Shown here piece by piece: positions 2-22,909 of a DNA stretch of 22,909 bases (its first letter is position 1; every line of letters starts with the position of its first letter). This DNA is from a virus: IMG/VR virus record IMGVR_UViG_3300017763_000216, positions 1 through 22,909 of that record; one strand, given 5' to 3'. The notes under the pieces were generated by a model, which was not told the DNA's origin, did no database searches, and saw nothing but the letters and a program-made list of their open reading frames with translations. The position numbers were made by a program, and so were the translations under genes.

Positions 2-985
2 AAAGATTATGGTTCTAAGGCAAGCTCTCTTAAAATCGTAAAGATAAAAGGTGGAGTGTCTATTCAGACGCCGAGCGGACAAGAACTCGAAAGATATAAC
101 AATGTACCTAAGTTAGGATACACTGTAGTAGAAAAGAATGAATCGCTTGAAGAATCAAGAGGCGACCTTATGAAGAGTGCTGAATATCTCAAGCTTATAA
201 ATCAGGCAATGAGTGCAATGCCTGGTTCTCCAAAACAAAAAGGTATTATCAAAAAGATAAATGCAATTCGTGTTAAGGCTGGTTTTAAACCTTTAGATGA
301 AGCTGACGGATGTTGGGACGGATTTAAAAAAGTTGGTATGAAAAAGAAAGGTGACAAAGTTGTACCAAATTGTGTGCCCGAAGAAATCGAAGAAGAAATG
401 AAGTGTCCACCTGCGACACAAGACCTTGCTATTAACACAAAGAATCGTGATGCTACAATCAAGAAATATAATTATGGGCCACTAAATGTTGATGAGCCTG
501 GTAATTATTGGGAGAAGATTGCTAAGTACTGGAAAACTACTACGGCTGCTGCTAAGAAATCATTATGCGGTAATTGCGTAGCTTTTGATGTTTCGCCAAG
601 AATGAAAGACTGCATGCCTGGAAAAACATCTGATAAAGATGGAGTATTAGGTTATTGCTGGATGCACCATTTTAAATGTCATTCAGCTCGTTCTTGTCAT
701 ACATGGGCAAAGGGTGGGCCAATTAAAGACAATAAGACATCAGAAGAATGGCAAGAAAAATCTGGTATCACTGAAGGTAAAGGAAAACCAGAAAGTTGGG
801 AATCAGGCTTTGAAAGACGCGTTGTAAAAACAACTAAGCCCGAACACAAAGAAAAAGAGTACGATTGGAGAATCAAAGGAAAGGACAGAGCCGAAGTAAC
901 AATTAAACTCTATCGAACTAAGCCAAGCTTTGCAGAATTTAAGAAACAAATGAAACGAGTAGCTGGATGGGAGTTTGGTGGATAA
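2..985 (+). CDS. Cys-rich conserved phage protein, 5' end cut by the window
   Basis: I do not recognise a specific function. The frame is open to the first base, so the gene probably begins upstream; a GTG at 56 is the only candidate start inside the window and I do not favour it. Counting from that GTG, the protein has a short Lys-rich segment with two cysteines (C86, C106; CWDGF...PNCVP), then a compact six-cysteine domain (C171, C174, C186, C201, C208, C214, plus H204, H205, H209, H215) that resembles a metal or Fe-S site or a disulfide-rich fold. A Lys-rich C-terminal module follows (about 255-309, IKLYRTK...KKQMKRVAGWEF). Similar mosaic proteins occur near structural genes of marine T4-like phages. 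The stop overlaps the next start as TAATG, so the two are probably co-translated. The metal-binding idea is inference. Confidence 0.75.
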   Translation, partial: KDYGSKASSLKIVKIKGGVSIQTPSGQELERYNNVPKLGYTVVEKNESLEESRGDLMKSAEYLKLINQAMSAMPGSPKQKGIIKKINAIRVKAGFKPLDEADGCWDGFKKVGMKKKGDKVVPNCVPEEIEEEMKCPPATQDLAINTKNRDATIKKYNYGPLNVDEPGNYWEKIAKYWKTTTAAAKKSLCGNCVAFDVSPRMKDCMPGKTSDKDGVLGYCWMHHFKCHSARSCHTWAKGGPIKDNKTSEEWQEKSGITEGKGKPESWESGFERRVVKTTKPEHKEKEYDWRIKGKDRAEVTIKLYRTKPSFAEFKKQMKRVAGWEFGG

Positions 986-3045
986 TGGTTACAAAGAAAC
1001 AATTAGATACTATTGAAAGATTTGCAGATAAGCTTTGGGCTAAGGTGGGTCTTGATATAGAATTTACTCGTCACTTTCTCGACCGCGTCAATGACGCTCG
1101 AAATAAAAAGCAAATAACAGGTGGAGAGATTCAAAGATTGTTTAAGCAATCATTTAGAAGACACGGAAAGAAAATCTCAGCTCTTGGTAAAGGAGCAGAA
1201 GCAGTCATAAAAGATATGGAAACTGATATTAATATGCCATTCGTATTACAGTTAGATAAGAATGGTGAGATTGATTTGATAGCAAAGACTGTAATGAGAA
1301 AGAAAGATTTTAAAACATCAAATAAAAAATTTACAGTAGAAAGTGGAGCTGGTGAACAAGGTACAGATGAGCTTTCTTATAAATACAAGAAAGATACGCC
1401 AGGTCAATCATCTAATGGGAAAAACATGAAAGAAAAACAGTCAGACAAAGCCTTAGACATTAAAAGTCTTGAAAAACTAATTAAAAATCCGTCACCTCGT
1501 ATGGTGAAAATGTACGGCAAGAGTAAGTATATTAATATGCTTAAAAAGAAACTTGCTAAACTAAAAGAGACGATTGAAGAATCTACTTTAAATTATGGCC
1601 GTACGATGAAAGCAATCGATAAAGAGCGAAAGATGAAAAACATCTCAGCCAAAGACAAAGCAACTCTTGGAAAGATTGCAGACCTTATGAAGCAATTACG
1701 TAATGAAGAAGATTTAGAAGAAGAAACCCTACAAGAAAAGGAGTTCGACGTAATATTTGGGGGCTATGCAAGTGAATGGCCTAATGTTAAAGCCGCATTA
1801 AAGAAAATGCGTATTAAGATACAGAACTATTATAAAACACCTTATGGCGAACATGAATTTACTATTGATACTACTCAATCTAAATTAAAACAGTTGATGA
1901 AAAGATATGGTGATTTAGAATTACAAGAAGACGCAGTTTCTCGGGCTAAAGAAAAAGCAGATTTAAAGAAAAAACATCAAGACGAGATTGAAAGTGAAAG
2001 AGATGAAATCAAAAGTATTAGTACTGAGTCCGTTGAACTTGAAGAAAATCGTGCCGTTGTTTATAATCCTAAGCTAATTAAATTGTTTATTAAACAAGTA
2101 GAGAAAAAGTTTCCAAAGTATAAAGGTGAAATTCAACAGGCTGAAAAAGATGAAATCGTTTTTCCGAATGATCCTAAATTAATTAAATTTTTTAAAGGTG
2201 CAAGAGAAGTTAAGTTTGTTCTTAGCGATTCCGTTGAAGAAGCAGTTAAATTTTGGAAAGTTACTATTACTAAGAAAGCTGGTAAACTCTTTAAGGGCCA
2301 GACAGTTGACGTAAAAGCACGCAACTCTGCCGAAGCTATTAAGAAAGGAATTAAGCAAATGAAAGGTAATCCTGCACTAGTTCCAGGTGGTAGTGTTGAT
2401 GCTGTATTAGGTGAGTCAAGAAACATGGACTTTGAAAAAGCAAATGTACTGACTTATGATGAATATGATGAAGTTAAAAACTTTAGAAACTTTAATAAGA
2501 AAGATTGGAAACGCAATGTTATCCAAAAGAAATACGTTAGAATCAAAAAAGTTAAAGAATCTACTGAAATACATGAAAATAAAGAAACTGAATCAGAACT
2601 ACAAGAAGCAGCACCATTCAAATCGCTCGAGCAAAAATGGCTCGCAACAAAAGGAGATAAAAAGAAACAAGGAAGACTCATTAAGAAACACTCCCTTAAA
2701 CCCCTTATTTCAAAAGTCAGACCTGGAGCTGTTAAACTTGGAGTCTTAAATGATCTTGATGCAAAAGGTTCTAAAAATGCTACATTTGCAGGTTTAGATG
2801 CTGATGGCGAATTGATCTTTGTAACAAATAATCCTACTAAAATATATTATGCTAAAAAAGGTTCTAAGAGACCTAAAGGTATGGAACTCGAAGATGTAGA
2901 TTTAGATGCGCTAAGACTTCAAAGAATGGTAGAAGTTGCAACTGGAGAAGAAAACAACGAATTTATCTCTGAAGCCGGTGTTGATTTAACGTGGACGCCT
3001 TCGATGATTCAAAAAGAATACAAAAAATACCTAGGCAATACCTAA
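985..3045 (+). CDS. Large conserved mosaic protein of the structural region
   Basis: This is a 686-residue Lys/Glu-rich protein of unknown function. I chose the ATG at 985 because it forms a TAATG overlap with the upstream stop; an in-frame ATG at 967 would add six residues inside the previous gene. Visible modules are: residues 22-110 (IEFTRHFLDRVNDARNKK... and a later strand-rich EIDLIAKTVMRKK), a linker, a segment near 253-310 (GGYASEW...LKQLMKRYGDLEL), a beta-rich segment near 420-460 (VKFWKVTITKK...VDVKARNSAEA), and a C-terminal module from about 541. Modules are separated by charged, coiled-coil-like linkers. Such proteins are conserved near head and neck genes of marine T4-like phages, so a virion or assembly role is likely but not shown. 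Confidence 0.8.
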   Translation: MVTKKQLDTIERFADKLWAKVGLDIEFTRHFLDRVNDARNKKQITGGEIQRLFKQSFRRHGKKISALGKGAEAVIKDMETDINMPFVLQLDKNGEIDLIAKTVMRKKDFKTSNKKFTVESGAGEQGTDELSYKYKKDTPGQSSNGKNMKEKQSDKALDIKSLEKLIKNPSPRMVKMYGKSKYINMLKKKLAKLKETIEESTLNYGRTMKAIDKERKMKNISAKDKATLGKIADLMKQLRNEEDLEEETLQEKEFDVIFGGYASEWPNVKAALKKMRIKIQNYYKTPYGEHEFTIDTTQSKLKQLMKRYGDLELQEDAVSRAKEKADLKKKHQDEIESERDEIKSISTESVELEENRAVVYNPKLIKLFIKQVEKKFPKYKGEIQQAEKDEIVFPNDPKLIKFFKGAREVKFVLSDSVEEAVKFWKVTITKKAGKLFKGQTVDVKARNSAEAIKKGIKQMKGNPALVPGGSVDAVLGESRNMDFEKANVLTYDEYDEVKNFRNFNKKDWKRNVIQKKYVRIKKVKESTEIHENKETESELQEAAPFKSLEQKWLATKGDKKKQGRLIKKHSLKPLISKVRPGAVKLGVLNDLDAKGSKNATFAGLDADGELIFVTNNPTKIYYAKKGSKRPKGMELEDVDLDALRLQRMVEVATGEENNEFISEAGVDLTWTPSMIQKEYKKYLGNT

Positions 3046-4062: not shown

Positions 4063-4767
4063 ATGAATTTACAAGAAAATATTTTAAAAGTCCTTAATGA
4101 AGGCCTGGGTAAAACCAATAAACGTGATCAAGAATTTGCTGACCTTCATAAGACCCAAGTGGCCAACGACCCCGAACAGGACGATCCTAAAGCAGGTGAC
4201 AACGCACCCAAATCAAAAGTGCCAAAGGGCCAAGGAGCTAAAGGTGTAAAGATTACTGACGTAGAAGAATATGACGGTAAAAAAATAGACCCTAAGAAAC
4301 AGGACGATGTTAAAACAAAGAAAGACGCTGCTCCAAAAGGAAAAGGTCTTAAAGGATTTAAAGAAGCTTATAAATCTGGTGAGCTCGACGAGAAAAAACT
4401 CGATCCAGTAAATAAGAAGTCCGCATCAAAAGATTTTGACGACCGCAAAGATAAAGACATTGATAACGACGGCGACGTAGATAGCTCTGATAAGTATCTG
4501 CATAAAAGACGTAAAGCGATATCAAAGGCTACTAAAAAAGAAGCAGTAGACCCTGCTAAATTTGTTAAGGGCGGCGATCTTAAAGTAAAAAAAAATGATG
4601 TAGATTCAATGCTGTCTAAACTATTTGGAAATTCAAAATTAAGTAAAGAGGCAGAGAAGAATAAAGCTTATAAAGCAGGATACAAAGGCGGAAAAAATCC
4701 TTATAAAAAAGATACCGCGGACTTTCATTTGTTTATTCTAGGACAGCAGGCTAAGTCTGCAGAATAA
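4063..4767 (+). CDS. Acidic/basic repeat-rich protein with EF-hand-like loop and RMF-like tail
   Basis: The protein has 234 residues, is low in complexity and rich in Lys, Asp and Pro, and is probably extended or disordered over residues 1-125. Residues 132-143 (DIDNDGDVDSSD) place Asp at positions 1, 3, 5, 7, 9 and 12 of a calcium-binding loop, like an EF-hand or dockerin loop, followed by a helix (KYLHKRRKAISKA). The C-terminus (about 201-231, AYKAGYKGGKNPY...LFILGQQAK) has the spacing of a ribosome-modulation-factor-like motif (A-G-x-NPY-x-W/F-x-G-x-A), which is common in small phage proteins. Calcium binding is inferred from the loop. A role as a virion or assembly protein is suggested by location only. 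No Shine-Dalgarno sequence is visible. Confidence 0.75.
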   Translation: MNLQENILKVLNEGLGKTNKRDQEFADLHKTQVANDPEQDDPKAGDNAPKSKVPKGQGAKGVKITDVEEYDGKKIDPKKQDDVKTKKDAAPKGKGLKGFKEAYKSGELDEKKLDPVNKKSASKDFDDRKDKDIDNDGDVDSSDKYLHKRRKAISKATKKEAVDPAKFVKGGDLKVKKNDVDSMLSKLFGNSKLSKEAEKNKAYKAGYKGGKNPYKKDTADFHLFILGQQAKSAE

Positions 4768-9133: not shown

Positions 9134-9561
9134 TGTATACATATAAAGTAAAAGAAATAGTAAGAGTTGTTGACGGTGATACCGTTGACATATTAGTTGA
9201 TTTAGGATTTGGACTCACAAAAAAAGAGCGAGTTCGAGTAGCTGGAATTGACACACCCGAGTCTCGTACACGAGATTTGTATGAAAAGAAGCTTGGTAAA
9301 GAAGCTGCTGCATATCTCACAGAGCAACTCGAAGATGGTGATATTATCATCAGAACAGAAAAAGATGGTAAGTATGGTAGAATGCTAGGCTGGTTATATA
9401 AAGAAGGCCAAACAATATCTATTCAAGAAGATATGATTAATCGCGGATACGGTTGGGCATATGACGGTGGTAAGAAAGAAAAATCATACGAAGAGTTAAA
9501 AGAGAAAAGAATTGCTGATGGCTCTTGGATATCACAAGACCAGAGCGAGTTTGATCTATAA
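9133..9561 (+). CDS. Staphylococcal-nuclease-like (SNase) endonuclease
   Basis: The protein has 142 residues and resembles thermonuclease (OB-fold, calcium-dependent). Catalytic and metal residues can be matched: D14 and D16 (VDGDT), R36 (RVRVAG), D40, T41 and E43 (GIDTPESR), and R83 (KYGRMLGWLY), equivalent to D21, R35, D40, T41, E43 and R87 of the staphylococcal enzyme. There is no signal peptide, so it acts inside the cell, perhaps on host DNA or in nucleotide salvage for the adjacent reductase. I chose the ATG at 9133, which forms TAATG with the cupin stop; an in-frame ATG at 9103 would add ten Arg/Lys-rich residues inside the cupin gene. Confidence 0.92.
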   Translation: MYTYKVKEIVRVVDGDTVDILVDLGFGLTKKERVRVAGIDTPESRTRDLYEKKLGKEAAAYLTEQLEDGDIIIRTEKDGKYGRMLGWLYKEGQTISIQEDMINRGYGWAYDGGKKEKSYEELKEKRIADGSWISQDQSEFDL

Positions 9562-9564
9562 ATA
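9557..9564 (+). promoter_or_regulatory. Candidate T4-type late promoter box (perfect TATAAATA)
   Basis: A perfect TATAAATA overlaps the stop codon of the SNase gene, four bases before the GTG at 9569. T4 spacing would place the transcript start at about 9570, effectively on the start codon. The position is suggestive, but the genes around it look early or middle rather than late, so the call is weak. Confidence 0.35.
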
Positions 9565-14339: not shown

Positions 14340-14911
14340 TTATACTAACAGACTGCGATGGAGTCCTTTTAAATTGGGCTCAAAGTTATCACTGGTGGAT
14401 GCACCGAAAAGGTTATCGGCCCGTAGATTCTACTGCGTATGCAATGGATATACATTACGGAATTGACCGTAAGGTATCAAAAGAGCTATGCAAAACTTTT
14501 TGTGAGTCGGCAGCAATTGGATTTCTTCCACCTATACGAGATGCTGTAAAGTATGTTCGAAAGTTACACGAAGAAGAGGGTGCTGTCTTTCACTGCATTA
14601 CATCAATGAGCGACGATCCTTGGGCAATCAAACTGCGAGAGCAAAACCTCGATCGTATTTTCGGAGAAGGCGTGTTTGAGCGGGTTGTATGTTTGCCATG
14701 TGGTGAAGATAAAGACGAAGCTCTTAAACGATACGAAGACTCTAATTTTATATGGGTCGAAGATAAGACAGAAAACGCTGAACTTGGTGCTAAGATGGGT
14801 TTAAATACGTTTCTTATTGACCATATATATAATAAGGGTCACGAGACAAGTGATGGTGTTACTCGAGTTAGTAATTGGAAAGAAATATATGAATACATTG
14901 GTGGAAAATAG
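14336..14911 (+). CDS. HAD-superfamily phosphatase, 5'(3')-deoxyribonucleotidase-like
   Basis: The protein has 191 residues. HAD motifs are visible: the nucleophile and acid-base aspartates in LTDCDGVLLNW (D6, D8), the Thr/Ser of motif II in HCITSMSDD (T89, S90), a candidate motif III lysine near 126 (GEDKDEA) and the metal-binding acids of motif IV in WVEDKTENAELG (E142, D143). The cap between motifs I and II is helical. Size and layout fit phage and bacterial nucleotidases that remove phosphate from deoxynucleotides, which would tie it to nucleotide metabolism, but another small phosphorylated metabolite is possible. Its stop lies inside the start of the PQ-loop gene, a 23-base overlap. Confidence 0.85.
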   Translation: MIILTDCDGVLLNWAQSYHWWMHRKGYRPVDSTAYAMDIHYGIDRKVSKELCKTFCESAAIGFLPPIRDAVKYVRKLHEEEGAVFHCITSMSDDPWAIKLREQNLDRIFGEGVFERVVCLPCGEDKDEALKRYEDSNFIWVEDKTENAELGAKMGLNTFLIDHIYNKGHETSDGVTRVSNWKEIYEYIGGK

Positions 14912-15158
14912 TTTAGGAATAATTTATAACGTTTGTTTTATTGGTTGTTTTTGGCCACAAATAATAAAGTCTGTTAGAACAAAATCCGTTGAAGATGTTA
15001 GCATAGGTCTATGTTTTATGTCTATAATCGGCTATGCTGCAGCGTTAGGATATGCTGTTTTAAAGTTCGGCTTTGATTATTGGCTGTGTCTAAATTATAT
15101 CTTTAGCGGCATATTCGTTGTCGTAATGATTTGTGTATATTACAAGTATAAAAAATAA
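14889..15158 (+). CDS. SemiSWEET/PQ-loop membrane transporter-like protein
   Basis: The protein has 89 residues and three predicted membrane helices (about 8-27, 39-60, 64-85). It carries the signature Pro-Gln at 23-24 in FWPQIIKSVRTKSVEDVS, followed by a second helix with SIIGYAAALGYA; this is one triple-helix bundle, as in SemiSWEET sugar transporters, which work as dimers in the inner membrane. I chose the ATG at 14889; an upstream in-frame ATG at 14817 lies deep in the HAD gene and would add a non-homologous tail. A sugar transporter in a phage that also carries a glycan gene cluster is notable, but the substrate is unknown. It overlaps the HAD gene by 23 bases and the next gene by one. 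Confidence 0.82.
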   Translation: MNTLVENSLGIIYNVCFIGCFWPQIIKSVRTKSVEDVSIGLCFMSIIGYAAALGYAVLKFGFDYWLCLNYIFSGIFVVVMICVYYKYKK

Positions 15159-15288: not shown

Positions 15289-15364
<76 letters not shown>

Positions 15365-15369
15365 TTTTA

Positions 15370-15444
<75 letters not shown>

Positions 15445-15446
15445 TT

Positions 15447-15522
<76 letters not shown>

Positions 15523-15527
15523 TTTTT

Positions 15528-15604
15528 GCTCCGATAGCTCAGTTGGATAGAGCAACGGTTTTCTAAACCGTGGGTCGCAGGTTCGAGTCCTGCTCGGAGT
15601 ACCA
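15528..15604 (+). tRNA. tRNA-Arg (UCU)
   Basis: Acceptor GCTCCGA pairs with TCGGAGT. The D-arm has an extra base (TTGGATA), the anticodon loop is TTTCTAA (anticodon TCT), the T-arm is GCAGG/CCTGC, the discriminator is A and CCA is encoded. It reads AGA and AGG codons, which this genome uses heavily for Arg while many bacteria do not. Confidence 0.95.
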
Positions 15605-15613
15605 TTATTTGAT

Positions 15614-15621
15614 TATAAATA
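15614..15621 (+). promoter_or_regulatory. Candidate T4-type late promoter of the glycan cluster
   Basis: A perfect TATAAATA lies in the 23-base gap between the last tRNA and the ParB-like gene, outside any coding sequence. T4 spacing puts the transcript start at about 15627, one base before the ATG at 15628, so the message would be almost leaderless. Of the four such boxes listed, this is the best placed. Confidence 0.55.
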
Positions 15622-15627
15622 AAATAC

Positions 15628-16080
15628 ATGACAGCGTATGAAGAAAGTATTTTGAAATGTAAATTTCACGGAACAGCGTGGAATGGCTATAAAGTAACAC
15701 ACTTAGAAGTAAGTGAGCTTTGGGCGTCAGTTGTAAAAGCAGAAATGCTTAGAGGTAAAAGCTTTTTTGCAAAGGTGAAAGAAGATATTCAAAAAAATGG
15801 TCTTCACTTTCCTCTTATTGTTGTTGATACACCAAGACGTAATCTAATAGAACAGAAGAGCAGGTACGGAGACAAGTTAAAACCTTTGCCATTTGATCTA
15901 AAGCGCGATGATTTAAATGTTAGACAATATACTGTGTGGGGTGGTTCAAATAGATGGTACGCTGCGCATGAATTAGGATTTAAGTATGTAGATTGTATAG
16001 TTGTACCTAATGCAGATTTTAACAAAGCTCGATCTATGCAAGCAATGCACAGAGCACCTTACAGAGGACAACTATACTAA
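15628..16080 (+). CDS. ParB/sulfiredoxin-fold domain protein
   Basis: The protein has 150 residues. The segment VKEDIQKNGLHFPLIVVD (about 50-70) and VWGGSNRWYAAHELGFKYVDCIVVPN (about 108-133) match the two conserved boxes of the ParB N-terminal fold, including the G-x-x-R-x-x-A-A pattern that in ParB binds nucleotide phosphates. The central segment is Arg/Lys-rich. There is no helix-turn-helix DNA-binding domain, so it is not a partition protein. Known relatives of the fold include CTPases, kinases and nucleases. It starts a gene run behind a late-type box and overlaps the first glycosyltransferase by one base, which suggests it serves the same pathway or is simply carried with it. Confidence 0.8.
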   Translation: MTAYEESILKCKFHGTAWNGYKVTHLEVSELWASVVKAEMLRGKSFFAKVKEDIQKNGLHFPLIVVDTPRRNLIEQKSRYGDKLKPLPFDLKRDDLNVRQYTVWGGSNRWYAAHELGFKYVDCIVVPNADFNKARSMQAMHRAPYRGQLY

Positions 16081-16853
16081 TGAATATAGCAATACACGCA
16101 AAGCAGTCAATACCATGGCAAAAGAAAGTCGCACTATTATATCAAAACGGATTAGCGCGACATGGAATTAAAGCACAAATAGTTGATTCCCCAAAAAGAA
16201 TTTCTGATATTGCGCTTGTTCTTGGACCAAATTTTTGGAAACAAATTGAAAACGACGGTAAGCCATATCTAATGGCCAATCGTAAATTTGTAGGATTTGG
16301 TGATCATGTTCATACAACTAACGCAATTAGTTGGGACGGTTTTAACGGTTATGGAAGATTTTGTGTCAAAGGTATTGATGAGACACGTTTAAGTAAGTTC
16401 CTTGACGTTATTAAAATGCACCCACAACGTAAAGGTAAGTATAATCTATTGTGCGAACAATACGATTTAGGTAGATGCACTAAATACAGTAACGTTAATC
16501 AATGGTACAATGAAATAAAAAAATCTTTTTCTCCGTTAAAAGTTCGTTCAAAAAAGAACCCCGAAAAAGTTGGACATAATTTATGGGAACAATCTTTTTG
16601 CTCAGAAATATCTGATGTAAAAGAAGCTCATGTTTTAAACTCTACCGTATCGGTTGATTTGCTTTACTATGGTATACCCGTAGTTTCTTGGGACAAAGGT
16701 GATCCATGTTATGTAGGAACAATAGAAAATAGAGAAAAGCTTTTTCATCATCTTGCTCATTGTCAGTGGACTTACGACGAGATAAATAATGGTGATTGGT
16801 GGGAACAACTGAAAACTAATGATGGGCCTAAACTAAATCAAATAAAAATATAA
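16080..16853 (+). CDS. Capsule-synthesis-like (KpsC/KpsS-type) glycosyltransferase
   Basis: The protein has 257 residues. The C-terminal half shows the layout of the capsule synthesis family: a strand with LLCEQYDLG (about 123-131), an Arg segment (PLKVRSKKNPE, about 152-162) and a nucleotide-site-like run SEISDVKEAHVLNSTVSVDLLYYGIPVVSW (about 176-205), where NSTVSVDLLYYG is the classic core of GT-B enzymes that transfer Kdo or similar sugars. The N-terminus is a short Rossmann-like half (MNIAIHAKQ...). Acceptor and sugar donor are unknown. It overlaps the ParB-like gene by one base, and the next gene starts six bases after its stop. Confidence 0.72.
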   Translation: MNIAIHAKQSIPWQKKVALLYQNGLARHGIKAQIVDSPKRISDIALVLGPNFWKQIENDGKPYLMANRKFVGFGDHVHTTNAISWDGFNGYGRFCVKGIDETRLSKFLDVIKMHPQRKGKYNLLCEQYDLGRCTKYSNVNQWYNEIKKSFSPLKVRSKKNPEKVGHNLWEQSFCSEISDVKEAHVLNSTVSVDLLYYGIPVVSWDKGDPCYVGTIENREKLFHHLAHCQWTYDEINNGDWWEQLKTNDGPKLNQIKI

Positions 16854-16859
16854 ATTAAT

Positions 16860-17450
16860 ATGAACGATAAAATTAGAGTATTCATAGCAACAGATGGAGA
16901 TATACATTCTGATGCTGAAAAAGTAATCGAGCATTCGATTAAGAAAAACACAAATGAAGAAGTTGAAATAAACTTTATTAGACCTGGTTATAAAAATGGA
17001 TGTACCGGATTTACAAATCATAGGTATCTAATACCAGAGTTATGTAACTACGAAGGTTACGCAATTTACTTTGATGTTGATATGTTAGTACTAGGTGACT
17101 TACGTGAATTGTGGGAATATAAAAAAGAAGGCAAATGGGTAACAACACCACACCGTGATGATGTAAGTGTTATTGATTGCGCTGCCTTTAAAGGTATAAT
17201 ACCTACTAAAAACACTTTAATGAATATGAAAAAGCCTGCGCTGATGCGGATGTTGCAAAATAAGACAGTTTCAAATATTCCTATTCAATGGAATACGTGT
17301 GATAAAATAACAAGTGATGCTAAACTCATACACTATACTGATTTATCTACACAACCTTGGCACCCAATTCCAGGCAAAAAGTATAAAGAGCACAAAAATC
17401 AAGACGCAGTAAATTTATTTTTCGAGTACTTGAATGAAGCAAGTGTTTGA
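16860..17450 (+). CDS. GT-A glycosyltransferase, GT8-like
   Basis: The protein has 196 residues. It begins with a strand IRVFIATDGD, has a conserved HRYLIPELCNYEGYAIYFD segment and carries the metal-binding DxD at D72-V-D74 (FDVDMLVLGDL). The C-terminal LIHYTDLSTQPWHP contains the His expected for a second metal contact in GT8-type enzymes. It should transfer a sugar from a nucleotide-sugar, retaining its configuration. It is shorter than many GT8 proteins (over 250) but complete in motifs. Its 3' end overlaps the next gene by 17 bases. The ATG is six bases after the upstream stop, with no Shine-Dalgarno sequence. Confidence 0.8.
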   Translation: MNDKIRVFIATDGDIHSDAEKVIEHSIKKNTNEEVEINFIRPGYKNGCTGFTNHRYLIPELCNYEGYAIYFDVDMLVLGDLRELWEYKKEGKWVTTPHRDDVSVIDCAAFKGIIPTKNTLMNMKKPALMRMLQNKTVSNIPIQWNTCDKITSDAKLIHYTDLSTQPWHPIPGKKYKEHKNQDAVNLFFEYLNEASV

Positions 17451-18117
17451 TAATATAAAAATAGAGGGTGAAATGCCTCTTGGTCCTGTAGTTATGGCTG
17501 CGTGTGATTCTATATATTTTAAAGAACACGCGACTGCACTAATTAACTCTGCAAATAAGATTGGAAAAGATATTCATATTCATGTAGTAAACCCAACACA
17601 AACTCTACGTGCTCCGCAAAACTTAAATATTAACGTTACATTTTCGTATCATAAAGCTAAACAGAATAGCAGAGAGTATTATAGCTGTATACGATTTATG
17701 ATAGCAAAAGAAATATTAAAGCATTCAAAAAAGCTATTAATAGTAGATGTAGATTCTATATTTAAAAACACTTTTGAGTGGCCTAAAACCAATTATGGAT
17801 ATTTTCCTAGAGAACATAAAATGCGTGAATTACAAGTAGCGGCTGGGTGTGTATATTTTCAAGAGGCTGCCATTGAGACATTGCCTCAGCTAGAAAATAA
17901 AATAGCCTCTTTACCGCTGAAATGGTATATTGACCAAAAAGCACTAGAGTGGTATTTTCGAAACGTTATAAAAGACTCTATTACTTACTTTGATGATAAA
18001 TTTATGGACTGGGAGTTTAAAAATAATACAGTTCTTTGGACTGGCAAAGGCAAGAGGAAAAAAAGAAACGTTACATATTTAAATGCTAAAAAAGAATGTG
18101 AAAAGATTAATACATGA
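17434..18117 (+). CDS. GT-A glycosyltransferase-like protein
   Basis: The protein has 227 residues. A first strand (PVVMAACDSIYF) is followed by a helix (HATALINSANKIG), a strand (IHIHVVNP), a conserved YSCIRFMIAKEIL helix, and the DxD at D105-V-D107 (KLLIVDVDSIF). The middle has GCVYFQEAA and a WYIDQKALEW segment, as in GT-A acceptor regions; the end is basic (WTGKGKRKKRN), which could hold a pyrophosphate or a charged acceptor. I infer a sugar transferase; donor and acceptor are unknown. I chose the ATG at 17434, which overlaps the previous gene by 17 bases; the next in-frame Met is residue 14. The stop overlaps the next start as ATGA. Confidence 0.75.
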   Translation: MKQVFDNIKIEGEMPLGPVVMAACDSIYFKEHATALINSANKIGKDIHIHVVNPTQTLRAPQNLNINVTFSYHKAKQNSREYYSCIRFMIAKEILKHSKKLLIVDVDSIFKNTFEWPKTNYGYFPREHKMRELQVAAGCVYFQEAAIETLPQLENKIASLPLKWYIDQKALEWYFRNVIKDSITYFDDKFMDWEFKNNTVLWTGKGKRKKRNVTYLNAKKECEKINT

Positions 18118-18854
18118 ATTTAGTTTATCAATATTATTTACCATACCCTGGTGAGATTGGAAAACCAGATTGGGTTGAAATTGGTAAAAAATCAGCAGAA
18201 AAATACTCTAAAGAAATCGGCGCTGAATATATCTATTCAGAAGAAAAATATATGAACTCAGTATTAAATGTGTTTGAGTCATTTAGATTATTTTTTGATG
18301 AGTCATTTGATTGTTATGATAAAATTTTATTATTAGACATAGATACAATTGTTAACACAAAGGATAATATTTTTGATATTGAAATAGAAGACGTTGGAAT
18401 GGTGCATGAATTAGGTGTATATAATAGATCAGCCGTACCTGGCGCTACCTTTACACCAAAATTTTGGGATAATTATTTTAATAATCCACATACTGGAGTT
18501 TCTAGTTATGCTAAAAAGTTTTTAGACGAAAAATTTAAATGGAAAAAAAGTAAACTATATCCAAACGAAAAGTTTGCTTTATACAACGGAGGTGTACAAG
18601 TGTGGTCAAAAGAAGGCAGGATAAAAGCACGATCACTGTTTGATTCTAAAAAGCACGATCATTTTCACAAAGAGACGCGAAAAGGCGAAACCGCGTATTT
18701 GAATATGATGTTTTTTCACCATGGATTTAAAATAACGGAATTGGAAAACGATTGGAACCGTTTAAATTTTCAATGGAGCGAAAACAATCACTTTGGTAAA
18801 ATAACGCATTTTAATGATATAATAAAAGATAAGATGTATAATCATGGCAAATAA
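18114..18854 (+). CDS. GT-A glycosyltransferase, first tandem paralog
   Basis: The protein has 246 residues. It opens NLVYQYYLPY, carries DWVEIGKKSAEKYSKEIG, an ESFRLFFDE helix, and the DxD at D75-I-D77 (KILLLDIDTIV). The acceptor half has PNEKFALYNGGVQVWSKEG and an ETAYLNMMF...ELENDWNRLNF segment. It aligns along its length with the next gene but has about twenty extra residues after the IEDVGMVHELG motif. The DxD, the NGGV motif and the end strands are typical of GT8/GT-A folds. The DNA here is more AT-rich than neighbouring blocks. It overlaps both neighbours (ATGA at the start, 11 bases at the end). Confidence 0.8.
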   Translation: MNLVYQYYLPYPGEIGKPDWVEIGKKSAEKYSKEIGAEYIYSEEKYMNSVLNVFESFRLFFDESFDCYDKILLLDIDTIVNTKDNIFDIEIEDVGMVHELGVYNRSAVPGATFTPKFWDNYFNNPHTGVSSYAKKFLDEKFKWKKSKLYPNEKFALYNGGVQVWSKEGRIKARSLFDSKKHDHFHKETRKGETAYLNMMFFHHGFKITELENDWNRLNFQWSENNHFGKITHFNDIIKDKMYNHGK

Positions 18855-19524
18855 TTTAATATATCAATATTTTTTACCGTACGGTGGGCCAATGAAAAGC
18901 ACAACCGATTGGGCTGACTTAGGCGTAGAATCAGCTAAAAAATATGCGAAGACCATCGGCGTAAAATATGAATTCTCTAATAAAGCCACAATGAATGCGC
19001 CAAATCAAAATTTGGAATCGTGCAGAATATTTTTAGATGATTATTTTAATCAATTTGATAAAGTGTTGTTGTTAGATGTTGATATCTTAATTAATACAAC
19101 AGAAAATATTTTTGATGAAGACGTAGAAGACATCGGAATGGTGCAAGATAGAACTAAAGGCGCGTTCGTAGAAAATATTATTTCTAAAATGGAATCTTAT
19201 GGTAACATAACATTTGTTAATTCGAAATCTTGTCCAAATGAAAAGAGATATTGCAATGGTGGAGTTCAACTTTGGTCAAAAGAAGGTAGACTTAAAGCAA
19301 GAGAAAAATTTGGTGGGTTACCAGAAATTTATCGATATAGAGAAGCAACTAAAATGAATGAGCAACCTTATATAAATTTAATGTTTAATCTACACGATAT
19401 TAAGGTTACAGAACTTTCTAATCAATGGAATAGAATGTATTTTATGTGGAAGAATAATAAACCTGATGGTAAATTTAATCACTTTTTAGCATTACACAAA
19501 AACAGGATGAAAGAATACGTATGA
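18844..19524 (+). CDS. GT-A glycosyltransferase, second tandem paralog
   Basis: The protein has 226 residues and is a diverged copy of the gene before it: NLIYQYFLPY, DWADLGVESAKKYAKTIG, an ESCRIFLDD helix, the DxD at D78-V-D80 (KVLLLDVDILI), NIFDEDVEDIGMVQD, CNGGVQLWSKEGRLKAREKF, and VTELSNQWNRMYFMW line up in the same order. It lacks the insert present after the DVGM motif in the first copy, so substrate pockets may differ. The pair looks like a local duplication followed by divergence, giving two transferases that may act in sequence on the same glycan. It overlaps the previous gene by 11 bases and the next by four. Confidence 0.8.
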   Translation: MANNLIYQYFLPYGGPMKSTTDWADLGVESAKKYAKTIGVKYEFSNKATMNAPNQNLESCRIFLDDYFNQFDKVLLLDVDILINTTENIFDEDVEDIGMVQDRTKGAFVENIISKMESYGNITFVNSKSCPNEKRYCNGGVQLWSKEGRLKAREKFGGLPEIYRYREATKMNEQPYINLMFNLHDIKVTELSNQWNRMYFMWKNNKPDGKFNHFLALHKNRMKEYV

Positions 19525-20201
19525 GATTATATAGAATATTTGATGCACTCGGTGATAGTATTATATTACTAACTTATTTTCAAAAGTATGATATAAAAAC
19601 TGTTTATTATAATCGTGGTAAATTTGAAAGACTAACTTTATTATCAAACTATTTAAATATATCATTACCAAATTTTGTAAAAGTTAATGAGAAAATTGAA
19701 ACTGATATGATAGATGTATTGGTACAACTTACAAAGGATAATGTCAATCTCATTTCTTTTAATAATAACGCAGAAAAAGGAGATTATCAAACGACGCAGG
19801 TTGGTTCAAAATGGACAGCGTCTTCAGATAGAAACATAACAAAAGAAGAGACTCAAGAATATTTAACGCATGCATTAGTAAAAGACGTATCTATTGCAAC
19901 AACAATTGGTGATATTATAAAATTACTTTCATCATCACAAAAACATGTTTCAATGGATTCTGGCACTGCCTGGTTATCTGCCGCTCTTGGTATAGATACG
20001 ATTGTTATTTCGAAAAATAGTTATTATTGGCATGAAGCATATTATTATATGAGATATTTGAGTATACAGAAGAGCGTACAAAACATTTATCCAAAGATAA
20101 AAAAAGCAACTGAAAAAGAGTTTAATAATGCATTGGTAAATAATAATGTTTCAGAACCGTATTCTTATGAAACATATTTAAATAAAATTAAAAAACTATG
20201 A
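19521..20201 (+). CDS. GT9-like (heptosyltransferase-type) protein
   Basis: The protein has 226 residues. The start MRLYRIFDALGDSIILLTYF resembles the N-terminal strand and GD loop of GT9 enzymes. The late segment HVSMDSGTAWLSAALGIDTIVISK matches the donor-site core (DSGxxHLAxALG) of ADP-heptose:LPS heptosyltransferases, with W in place of the usual His. It is much shorter than typical GT9 members (around 330-350 residues), with a reduced middle region. Donor sugar and activity are therefore uncertain; a degenerate or accessory transferase is possible. Its coding DNA is strongly AT-rich. The ATGA overlap at both ends suggests coupling. Confidence 0.65.
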   Translation: MRLYRIFDALGDSIILLTYFQKYDIKTVYYNRGKFERLTLLSNYLNISLPNFVKVNEKIETDMIDVLVQLTKDNVNLISFNNNAEKGDYQTTQVGSKWTASSDRNITKEETQEYLTHALVKDVSIATTIGDIIKLLSSSQKHVSMDSGTAWLSAALGIDTIVISKNSYYWHEAYYYMRYLSIQKSVQNIYPKIKKATEKEFNNALVNNNVSEPYSYETYLNKIKKL

Positions 20202-20896
20202 AAGCGTTTATCATTTATATAAAAAATCACGAAGGCTCTACTGCTACTGCTAATTTAACTCTTGAGAGCTGTGAAAAACATGGGTATTCTGCAGAATTAT
20301 ATGAAGGTATAACGCCATCGACATTATCTGCATGGGAAGAAAAATACAAATTAGAAAATAAAGTTTTAAACCCAAGTCACATGTATGATAGACAAATTGG
20401 TATTAATGGTTCTGAATTTACGTATCAATGTAAATATTCTAATTTTCTAAATCATTATACTCTTTGGAATAAATGCGTAGAGTTAGATGAAACGATTGTA
20501 ATACTCGAACACGACGCTTTAGCGGTTAGCGAATGGAAAAATCCTAAGTTTGATGAACTATTAGTTTTAAATGTTAGAAGTGGTTTATATGGAGAAGAAC
20601 TGGATAAGCTCAGAAAACCAGAACTTTATAAGGGTGTTCACGATTATAAAAATAAATATTTGAACTATAAAGCAAAAAATATTTGGTTTGATGCTGGCAT
20701 GATACCTGGCACTGCTTCATACGCGATTAGTCCAAAGGGTGCTAAAAGACTTATAAATAACATTGAAAAATGCGGGTGGGATAAAGCAGACTATATTGTG
20801 AATAATAAATCTGTACATATGCAATATATACAGCCTGATTATTTTCATTTTTCACATCACATAATAAAAAATCAAAGAACAAGTCACGGAGAATAA
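20198..20896 (+). CDS. GT25-like glycosyltransferase
   Basis: The protein has 232 residues. The layout fits GT25 enzymes (LPS side-chain beta-transferases and relatives): strand MKAFIIYIKN, ESCEKHGYSAELYEGITP, then CKYSNFLNHYTLWNKCVELDETIVILEHDA, where E104-H105-D106 stands at the usual ExD site (a His replaces the middle Asp), and later GTASYAISPKGAKRLINNI, the typical C-terminal acceptor motif. I infer transfer of galactose or glucose to a growing glycan. The end of the gene carries a GGAG four bases before the next ATG, one of the few Shine-Dalgarno sequences in the window. Confidence 0.82.
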   Translation: MKAFIIYIKNHEGSTATANLTLESCEKHGYSAELYEGITPSTLSAWEEKYKLENKVLNPSHMYDRQIGINGSEFTYQCKYSNFLNHYTLWNKCVELDETIVILEHDALAVSEWKNPKFDELLVLNVRSGLYGEELDKLRKPELYKGVHDYKNKYLNYKAKNIWFDAGMIPGTASYAISPKGAKRLINNIEKCGWDKADYIVNNKSVHMQYIQPDYFHFSHHIIKNQRTSHGE

Positions 20897-21525
20897 TGGA
20901 AAGACGAGAAATAAAAAACGCAAAAGACTTAGGGGATTTTGTAGAAATACTAAAAAGAGATTTTCCTCAAGCCCATAGCTATAGGAATCACATGGACTTA
21001 GTTAAAGAGAACATGAAACCTGGATATACATATAAAGAACTTGGAGCTTTTTGGGGATATAGCGCAGCTATTGCAGTACTAGCCGGAGCTTCTAAATTAC
21101 ATGTTGTTGATATCGATATGGCTCCATTTAATCATCATAAGAAATATTTTGAAGACGCTCTTAAAAAAGTTGACGGAAAATTGGTACAGCATGAATATAG
21201 TTCTCTAGATGATAGGTGTGTTGGTTCTTGTGATGCTATGCTAATTGATTCTCTACATAAGTGGGAACACGTATATAATGAGCTAGAACTTCATTCTCAT
21301 ACTGTTAAAGATTGGATTGTATTTCACGATACACATACACTTTATAAGTGGACACGACACGGAGCCATCGGCGACCCTAGAGACTTTAAGACACCAACGC
21401 CTTCACCGATTGGGCCAGGAATTAAAGGATGGTTATTAACACCAAAGGGTTCTCATTGGGAATTCGCAGAAGAAACAACAGAACGTTGTGGCGCAATGAT
21501 GATTCGTAGAAAAGAAAATGATTGA
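20896..21525 (+). CDS. Class I SAM-dependent methyltransferase (CmcI/Methyltransf_24-like)
   Basis: The protein has 209 residues. Motif I is seen as YKELGAFWGYSAAIAVLAG (E48, G50, G54), followed by the acidic post-I strand LHVVDIDMAPF (D72, D74), then DAMLIDSLHKWEHVYNELELH and the strand WIVFHDTHT, which together match the methyltransferase group near cephalosporin hydroxylase-like proteins, often found in glycan clusters. It probably O-methylates a sugar or a modified residue of the polymer; SAM is the donor. It starts TAATG after the GT25 gene with a GGAG sequence four bases ahead, and its stop overlaps the next gene by eight bases. Confidence 0.85.
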   Translation: MERREIKNAKDLGDFVEILKRDFPQAHSYRNHMDLVKENMKPGYTYKELGAFWGYSAAIAVLAGASKLHVVDIDMAPFNHHKKYFEDALKKVDGKLVQHEYSSLDDRCVGSCDAMLIDSLHKWEHVYNELELHSHTVKDWIVFHDTHTLYKWTRHGAIGDPRDFKTPTPSPIGPGIKGWLLTPKGSHWEFAEETTERCGAMMIRRKEND

Positions 21526-21880
21526 AGTACCAGTAGCACATGGTGAGTTATATGATAAACTAACTATTTTACAAATCAAATCTGATAAAGGATTGGATGT
21601 TAAAACAGAATTGGAATATCTTACAGACAAAGTAGAAAAGCTAGATTGTGGAAGAATTGTATCTTCCTTTGTCGAATGTCTTAAAAGAGTTAATGAATTG
21701 CTTTGGAGTATTGAAGACGACAAAAGAGCACATGAAGGTAAGAAAGACTTTGGTAACGATTTTGTAGAGCTAGCAAGATTGGTTTATATTTTAAATGACC
21801 ATAGAGCTTTATTAAAAAGACAGATCAATCTATATTCTAATAGTGAATTTAGTGAAGTTAAAAAACACTCGGAGTACTAA
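21518..21880 (+). CDS. DUF6165-type protein of glycan clusters
   Basis: The protein has 120 residues. The opening EVPVAHGELYDKLTILQIK and the helical remainder (LKRVNELLWSIEDD, NDFVELARLVYILNDHRALLKRQIN) match a small family, which I recall as DUF6165, that sits beside glycosyltransferases in bacterial LPS and capsule loci. Its function is not known; an all-helical adaptor or regulator of transferases is possible. Its presence supports the reading that the surrounding genes build a surface-type glycan. It overlaps the methyltransferase gene by eight bases and the next gene by one (TAATG), with GGAG five bases before that ATG. Confidence 0.8.
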   Translation: MIEVPVAHGELYDKLTILQIKSDKGLDVKTELEYLTDKVEKLDCGRIVSSFVECLKRVNELLWSIEDDKRAHEGKKDFGNDFVELARLVYILNDHRALLKRQINLYSNSEFSEVKKHSEY

Positions 21881-22716
21881 TGGGATTAGGTGATGATATG
21901 TTATTTCTTGGTGAAGCTGAAAAGATACATAAAGAAACAGGTAAGAAAGTCTTTCCAGTTAATTACCGCAGATCTGCTATTTTCGAAAATGTCGACTTTT
22001 TAACTTTTGATAGAAATGAAGAACACGTAAAAGTTAACGTAACGAATCAACCTCCAACATGTCTTCGCGACGGTGAAAAGGTTGACTATCATATACCGTA
22101 TTATGTAAAAGAAGAAGTACATACAAAAAATGGAATGCACTTTATTTGGAATGAAGATTATAAACCAGTCCCATTTAAATTAAAATTTAGTCAAGAAGAA
22201 CTTCGGTCTCGCGATAGACGTGAAAAGCATATGCCAGCTCCTTGGTCAGAATATATAGTTGTAAACCCCGATGTTAAAAATAGTTTTTTTAAAGGAAATA
22301 AAAATTGGGGTTTCGATAATTGGCAAAAACTAACAACTAAACTGCATGAAGCAGGACATCTCGTAGTAAGATTTAAACCATCTGGTGCAGGGTATGATGA
22401 ACCAATGTTAAAAAATTGTGCAAATATCTTAGAGGTTCCTTTAAGGATTGCTTTAGCCATAAAATCTAAAGTAAAGTTGGGTGTTACATTTGACGGTTTA
22501 CTTAGTCATGTTTGGGCAGGAGCTGAAGTTCCTTGTGTTAGAATTTGTGGCGGCTTTATGTCTTCTAAGACATTACACTATGATAATAATCTTTCACTTG
22601 CGTTAAACAACAACCCAATTGGTAAATGTTATCCATCACAAGATATAATAGAAGCAAATAAAAAAATTACAGTCGACATGGTATATGATGCATGTATGAA
22701 ACAATTGAATTATTAA
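21880..22716 (+). CDS. GT9-like glycosyltransferase (heptosyltransferase-type), short N-terminus
   Basis: The protein has 278 residues. It opens directly with GLGDDMLFLGEAEKIHKETGKK, the GD loop that in typical GT9 enzymes follows a first strand, so the N-terminal strand is missing; stop codons lie in frame shortly upstream, so the start at 21880 is firm. The C-terminal half has YIVVNPDVKNSFFKGNKNWG, FDNWQKLTTKL, and a donor-site-like VKLGVTFDGLLSHVWAGAEVPCVRICGG, where GLLSHVWAGAEVP stands for the usual SGxxHLAxALG. A heptosyltransferase-like activity is inferred, with unknown donor. It is the second GT9-like protein in the cluster and the last complete gene. Confidence 0.7.
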   Translation: MGLGDDMLFLGEAEKIHKETGKKVFPVNYRRSAIFENVDFLTFDRNEEHVKVNVTNQPPTCLRDGEKVDYHIPYYVKEEVHTKNGMHFIWNEDYKPVPFKLKFSQEELRSRDRREKHMPAPWSEYIVVNPDVKNSFFKGNKNWGFDNWQKLTTKLHEAGHLVVRFKPSGAGYDEPMLKNCANILEVPLRIALAIKSKVKLGVTFDGLLSHVWAGAEVPCVRICGGFMSSKTLHYDNNLSLALNNNPIGKCYPSQDIIEANKKITVDMVYDACMKQLNY

Positions 22717-22717
22717 T

Positions 22718-22909
22718 ATGAAAGCATACGTAATTGGTGATGTAAATAATGAAACATCTTTTTGGGCAATGACTGCGTGTGTTCGTACCGCAACTATTCC
22801 AGTAGAAAGATTTCAACAGGTATCTGCATCAGATGTAACAGAGAAAGAACTCAACCAATACTCTTATCCTATTGGTGAAAGTGTATTATGTAAAAAATCT
22901 AATCTGGTA
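22718..22909 (+). CDS. Unknown protein, cut by the window end
   Basis: Sixty-four codons are visible, starting MKAYVIGDVNNETSFWAMTACVRTA. The ATG is one base after the stop of the GT9-like gene, in the same direction and close packing, so it is probably part of the same glycan run. The opening strand (KAYVIGDV) followed by a short helix could be the start of a nucleotide-binding or glycosyltransferase domain, but nothing decisive is visible. Confidence 0.65.
   Translation, partial: MKAYVIGDVNNETSFWAMTACVRTATIPVERFQQVSASDVTEKELNQYSYPIGESVLCKKSNLV

Follow-up and report, generated by a model that had tools for sequence, protein, structure and literature searches.

A putative glycan-modifying gene cassette apparently exchanged at fixed anchors between T4-like phages

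We analysed a virus record of 22,909 bases without Ns (IMGVR_UViG_3300017763_000216, called the window below), which carries at 15628–22909 a run of genes for putative glycan-modifying enzymes. The phage is T4-like, as marked by its genes for ribonucleotide reductase (nrd), a T4-type RNase H (rnh), a DexA-type exonuclease of the PD-(D/E)XK kind (dexA) and a SegE-like endonuclease (segE), which form the phage context of the cluster. The gp32 protein of a near relative, G008 (relatives are designated here by G or L numbers), is closest to those of Kyanoviridae, namely phage C48C1 (56%) and cyanophages. Used as a nucleotide query against phage records, the window matched only through its tRNAs and one 73-base stretch. 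A first-pass annotation, made from the sequence alone, had noticed a run of glycan enzyme-type genes on one strand, beginning just behind the tRNAs, and this description holds. Twelve plus-strand frames follow head to tail with junctions of +6 to −17 bases; eleven are complete, the last is truncated by the contig end, and the first begins 23 bases past the end of tRNA-Arg (15604). Several different glycosyltransferase (GT) genes lie here in one operon-like run on a phage contig, the arrangement by which a phage lipopolysaccharide (LPS)-type glycan cluster is recognised. The cassette has a G+C content of 32.4%, against 35.6% for the backbone.

The run opens with a gene for a ParB/Srx-like protein (15628–16080), the left anchor of the cassette. 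Its earlier naming as ParB-like is backed by PHROG 4715 (2.7e-6) and is weak in Pfam (PF02195, 0.0044, 17.5 bits; cut-off 26.3). The sequence WGGSNR is invariant in this family, which was found in nine viral loci, in most of them with glycan genes behind it; one of the relatives (L119, 3987–4954) carries the gene in two tandem copies. Behind it come a KpsC-like putative glycosyltransferase (16080–16853), named from a motif and its neighbourhood, a GT8 glycosyltransferase with a DVD motif (16860–17450; PF01501, 1.1e-6, 28.9 bits), a putative GT-A glycosyltransferase with a DVD motif and no family match (17434–18117), and a GT8-like glycosyltransferase with a DID motif (18114–18854; PF01501, 0.0029, 17.7 bits, below the cut-off of 24.3). 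The following GT8 gene, again with a DVD motif (18844–19524; PF01501, 1.3e-6, 28.6 bits), is a paralogue of the one before it, its product being about 40% identical in amino acids to the G001 copy of that preceding gene. Next are a short GT9-like, heptosyltransferase-type protein (19521–20201; PF01075, 0.1, 12 bits, cut-off 22; TIGR02193/TIGR02195, 0.02), a GT25 glycosyltransferase of the LPS biosynthesis type (20198–20896; PF01755, 3.9e-13, 50.2 bits, cut-off 24) and an S-adenosylmethionine (SAM)-dependent methyltransferase (20896–21525; PF13578, 8.7e-6, 27.0 bits, cut-off 26.3). A DUF6165 protein (21518–21880; PF19662, 5.2e-6, 26.7 bits, just below the cut-off of 27) and a GT9-like glycosyltransferase (21880–22716; PF01075, 2.5e-4, 20.9 bits, just below the cut-off) are 72% and 62% identical in amino acids to their G002 counterparts; the latter also has a relative in the Caulobacter phage CcrSC cluster. 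The run ends with the start of a gene cut by the contig end (22718–22909), called GT25-like from its counterpart in G008 (23380–23571, 92.2% nucleotide and 93.8% amino acid identity), which resembles the GT25-family protein X_GT25b of G002.

Of the enzymes proposed by the first-pass annotation, the GT25 at 20198 is strongly supported, and the GT8 proteins at 16860 and 18844 and the methyltransferase at 20896 also pass their Pfam cut-offs. For one GT8 and one GT9 the support is weak, and three calls (the KpsC-like protein, the second GT9 and a GT-A) stay at the level of motifs; the DUF6165 assignment is matched in Pfam and falls just short of the threshold. DUF6165 has many relatives in bacteria, whose neighbourhoods were too varied to yield a function. 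Searches of PDB sequences with the KpsC-like, GT8, GT9 and ParB-like proteins, and with a beta-barrel protein discussed below, gave no significant match. The ‘full pathway’ earlier suggested was not borne out: the cluster offers transferases and one methyltransferase, and a complete polysaccharide pathway (Wzx/Wzy or ATP-binding cassette type) is not shown, because no sugar-nucleotide enzyme, flippase, polymerase or ligase (Pfam) and no predicted membrane segment was found among the window cluster proteins, on a contig that stops within the island. An epimerase gene is present in the G002 and G008 clusters.

The identity of the KpsC-like protein as a KpsC/KpsS-type 3-deoxy-D-manno-octulosonic acid (Kdo) transferase gained no support. 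No match was found in Pfam, NCBIfam or PDB sequences. Structure prediction gave a mean predicted local distance difference test score (pLDDT) of 32.5 from the single sequence and 47.6 from six sequences, and the latter model had no Foldseek match at E<=1e-3; the models are too poor to be read for or against the family, and no fold is claimed. Relatives of this protein adjoin the ParB-like gene in L113, L122 and L114–L116, and that of L115 has matches among the glycan-cluster proteins of two phages, Caulobacter phage CcrSC and Pelagibacter phage Mosig. Because of these relatives in the CcrSC and Mosig clusters, and behind ParB-like genes in L113–L116, a glycan enzyme is plausible.

Directly ahead of the run, the box TATAAATA (15614–15621, plus strand) lies 6 bases upstream of the ParB-like ATG. 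It starts 14–15 bases before this ATG in six contigs (the window, G008, L113, L114, L115 and L116). It is absent where the ParB-like gene abuts its upstream gene (G001, G012, G002) and also in the more distant L119 and L121. In eight contigs, 22 of 74 such boxes precede an ATG by 3–8 bases, whereas 55 anagrams of the box average 1.4 such placements. By raw count the box is not enriched in the window (4 against 3.6 expected from shuffles), but the promoter claim, already made in the first-pass annotation, stands because the position is conserved. Its fixed distance before genes is that of a T4-type late promoter, and we take it as a predicted one. If the box functions like its T4 counterpart, transcription would begin close to the ATG, and late transcripts in this phage group would be leaderless or nearly so. 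Boxes 3–8 bases before an ATG recur in the window (9557–9564 and 15614–15621) and also in G008, G002 and G009–G011.

Comparison with the near relative G008 (51 kb) revealed conserved flanks around changed content. Gene by gene, G008 is mostly 85–93% identical to the window in nucleotides through the tRNAs, with lower values at the 4063 and 14336 genes; the ParB-like gene is only 64% and the KpsC-like gene 80% identical. Behind the KpsC-like gene G008 carries other, non-homologous glycan genes until the point corresponding to window position 22718, where identity returns at 92%. Its island spans about 13 kb and some twenty genes, with nucleotide-metabolism and nuclease genes on the left and gp32 and baseplate genes on the other side. 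The window cluster is the left part of such a longer island, inside which the contig stops. In G002 the ParB-like gene is kept on the left and DUF6165 followed by GT9 on the right, while other transferases, a methyltransferase and an epimerase lie between. Conserved flanks with variable content between close relatives are the hallmark of an exchangeable antigen-type locus. Other phages carry related clusters at this position, with the flanks and part of the order kept, which speaks against a chance gene set.

The exchange itself is visible in G001, whose backbone is distant from that of the window (55–73% nucleotide identity). Five consecutive genes (18114–21525) are nonetheless 91.5–98.9% identical between the two; the shared block opens at the GT8-like 18114 gene and closes at the methyltransferase 20896–21525, the values being 98.0, 96.5, 98.7, 98.9 and 91.5% in gene order. 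The same cassette is found here on different backbones, as in an exchangeable antigen-type locus. Synonymous divergence (dS) within the block is 0.015–0.12 in four genes and 0.28 in the methyltransferase, and it is saturated or above 3 in nrdA, nrdB and dexA; between the window and G008, backbone genes reach 0.36–0.79. Since the four shared genes are less diverged than the window–G008 backbone, the transfer looks younger than the window–G008 split. Nonsynonymous divergence (dN) is below dS in all five shared genes, weakly for GT25, which points to purifying selection.

Breakpoints could be placed almost to the gene in two lineages. Over 13.7 kb, G001 and G012 share 99.74% identity; no more than about 20 bp from the ParB-like stop codon they diverge into different cassettes, and at its junction G001 retains 42 codons of another GT gene as a stub. 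G009, G010 and G011 differ by a precise swap of one gene position, bounded by the ParB-like stop codon and the start of the KpsC-like gene. In two of the three comparisons the alignment breaks off a single base beyond the ParB-like stop codon, in the third eleven bases beyond it, and it picks up again no more than nine bases ahead of the KpsC-like start. The three inserts all differ: one is a methyltransferase, another a GT61, and the last consists of two unknown genes. The two lineages share the breakpoint behind the ParB-like gene, as both G001/G012 and G009–G011 part there. As far as these alignments tell, glycan genes are exchanged between phages as blocks, almost gene for gene, at fixed anchors. 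From the phage-encoded late glycan operon first proposed, the glycan-modifying operon is supported and the late timing is probable; block exchange was not visible from a single window.

These data can be read as a late-expressed, exchangeable cassette of a T4-like (Kyanoviridae-related) phage that remodels the host-envelope glycan in the infected cell, a reading to which we give about an even chance. The late-type promoter directly ahead of the ParB-like gene would drive one operon. The GT8, GT9, GT25 and related transferases would probably act in the host cytoplasm on the host's own sugar nucleotides, extending or capping a host envelope acceptor, for example the core of LPS or lipooligosaccharide (LOS); a cytoplasmic acceptor is needed because the cluster holds no membrane or export gene. 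The methyltransferase would probably cap a sugar. Late in infection the cell surface would thereby be altered, which could fend off competing phages or keep progeny from adhering to debris. Recombination between phages at the conserved flanks would swap glycan genes, and close relatives would therefore make different glycans. A link to the surface is suggested by GT8, GT25 and GT9 being LPS-type families and by a gene to the right of the island in G002, G008 and L143, whose product is predicted to be an exported beta-barrel protein with a C-terminal Phe. This gene (L003 11736–12371; L129 14562–15236, minus strand) occurs in nine viral loci, sometimes adjoining the glycan island; it is a neighbour rather than a cassette member, because it is also found in contigs without a nearby glycan cluster.

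Several points weigh against envelope remodelling. Three cluster proteins are without family support, and the model made for one of them yielded no interpretable fold. The contig breaks off before the island does. Where related genes occur in other phages, the cluster in several of them adjoins tail-fibre genes. Tail-fibre-like genes stand next to the glycan genes in L143 and L114–L116, and the window stops before the right flank. A late promoter would suit virion glycosylation at least as well as it suits superinfection exclusion. The G001 record is a scaffold, and its first shared gene contains a 10-N gap some 650 bp to the right of the junction. We considered whether G001 could be an assembly chimera of G012 and a window-like phage; the GT stub at the junction is not the same as the gene of G012, and the gap lies that distance away, which makes a chimera less likely.

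The late promoter and the tail-fibre neighbourhoods make virion glycosylation a serious rival: the cassette, exchanged in the way described, could act in the cytoplasm on a virion protein, for example that of the tail fibre or capsid, and its glycosylation would make particles vary in antigenicity or receptor contact. Such glycosylation is documented in mycobacteriophages (Freeman 2023, as cited in PMC12619734), and the lack of membrane, export or lipid-carrier genes in the cluster would suit it, as would related clusters that adjoin tail-fibre genes in L114–L116, S-SRM01 and CcrSC. Variable regions of T4-like phages, however, generally have tail-fibre genes as neighbours, a setting that would suit a role at the host surface too. 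None of the window genes was identified as a tail-fibre gene, members of the GT9 and GT25 families typically serve LPS synthesis, and a set of about ten enzymes seems large for building a short protein glycan. We hold virion glycosylation to be possible, if on balance unlikely. The envelope or virion reading could equally accommodate a different origin of the genes, in which each phage took them from its own host and matches between phages reflect a shared donor bacterium. DUF6165 is widespread in bacteria and the G+C content of the cassette is somewhat below that of the backbone, but the genes join precisely at the same phage anchors. Moreover, in thin samples chosen with the host not identified, the methyltransferase had no match and the ParB-like family one weak match in 399 Pseudomonadota genomes, and a search for GT25 in 197 genomes from a single order yielded one marginal match. 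Such a host-donor origin appears improbable to us. More doubtful still is that the ParB-like protein is itself the agent of exchange, marking or cutting DNA so that glycan genes are replaced behind its own gene in a phage-borne, self-promoted serotype switch.

That the glycan genes are non-functional filler kept for headful packaging, as was raised for cyanophage LPS clusters (PMC3037559), we consider very unlikely. Content does differ widely between close relatives, and some contigs have no recognised glycan gene at the locus; yet the twelve frames are intact and tightly joined, dN is below dS in the shared block and the promoter box is conserved. Decoration of modified bases in phage DNA, offered earlier as one possible acceptor, is the least probable of these readings. 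Glycosylated DNA is known in T-even phages, and a ParB-like gene heads the cluster. Against this, a PF00303 thymidylate-synthase-type enzyme was not found in the window or in near relatives, all of them genome fragments, the GT families are of LPS type, and near-identical backbones carry different glycan genes. A search for Tet/JBP carries no weight either way, as its control gave no match.

Glycan clusters of T4-like phages are already known (PMC3037559, PMC7824862, PMC7029224), as is block transfer of other accessory genes (PMC9599517). The LPS clusters of the T4-like cyanophages P-SSM2, S-SM2 and S-SSM7 (PMC3037559, PMC7824862) are, as in the window, multi-gene glycosyltransferase clusters of varying content near tRNAs, but they also bring sugar-nucleotide and sugar-modifying enzymes. 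None of five window proteins searched (two GT, DUF6165, ParB-like, SemiSWEET-like) had a match in P-SSM2. The host recognition cluster of pelagimyophages is likewise a hypervariable T4-like region rich in GT8 glycosyltransferases, GT8 being its commonest family and read as modifying the O-chain, and it adjoins tail-fibre genes (PMC7029224). In contrast, the window cluster lies behind nucleotide-metabolism and nuclease genes with a ParB-like gene first, and exchange is seen at gene resolution. Pelagibacter phage Mosig EXVC030M (MT647606) carries, behind nrdA/nrdB, methyltransferases, glycosyltransferases, a sulfotransferase and the relative of the L115 KpsC-like protein (Mosig_00183–00191), but no ParB-like gene was recognised there and the enzymes are otherwise different. 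In Caulobacter phage CcrSC, a jumbo phage of another lineage, a run of small genes behind tail-fibre genes (gp169–gp174) includes KpsC-like (gp171) and GT9-like (gp174) relatives and an FkbM methyltransferase, with identities of only 24–31%. Curli (type VIII secretion system, T8SS) genes transfer between pelagiphage families (PMC9599517), so that a co-located accessory block moves between distant phages as here; the curli block is a secretion system and not a set of glycan enzymes, whereas the window cassette is exchanged gene-precisely at fixed anchors. Bacterial O-antigen and capsule loci also exchange surface-antigen genes between conserved flanks.

In the part of the literature searched, we found no prior report of gene-precise exchange at fixed anchors, seen here in two lineages, nor of the linked SemiSWEET-like gene. 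Should the cassette prove functional, gene swapping would let close relatives coat infected cells or virions with different sugars, a phage counterpart of bacterial O-antigen switching. The purpose of T4-like glycan clusters would then become directly testable, because near-identical backbones with different cassettes exist (G001, G012).

Upstream of the cluster, a SemiSWEET-like PQ-loop membrane protein is encoded at 14889–15158 on the plus strand (PF04193, 1.1e-11). The family profile matches the SemiSWEET structures 4x5m, 9kax and 4rng at about 1e-6 to 1e-5 and the PQ motif is invariant, the two signs by which a SemiSWEET is recognised; the pocket Trp of SemiSWEETs is not conserved here. 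The protein had no match in 50,697 deposited phage records. Its gene was found in 56 viral loci, in 39 of which a HAD-type gene precedes it, and it overlaps or abuts the ParB-like gene in G001, G012 and G002. Downstream sequence of at least 2 kb is available at 27 loci with the gene; in 17 of them it holds a recognised glycan-type relative (seven of the 17 showing no ParB-like gene), and in 10 none is recognised; these counts are rough, because some loci are near-copies of each other and search sensitivity is limited. The protein may supply sugar or another small molecule, and its position beside the cluster gives another clue to how sugar might be supplied.

Between the SemiSWEET-like and ParB-like genes lie four plus-strand tRNA genes found by ARAGORN (Thr, Asn, Lys and Arg; 15289–15604). 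Their number varies, G008 having two, and none was found at this place on the scanned G001 and G002 segments. Near the right end of the G002 island a subtilase-family (S8) protease gene is present (L003 14177–15976, minus strand). Another phage cluster (L008 938–10943) combines DUF6165, GT25, a methyltransferase, a radical SAM/SPASM protein and a TctA-type transporter. At the left of the window, frames 2–985, 967–3045 and 4063–4767 match the same unknown PHROG families in different stretches and are partly shuffled in G001; they are perhaps modular structural proteins.

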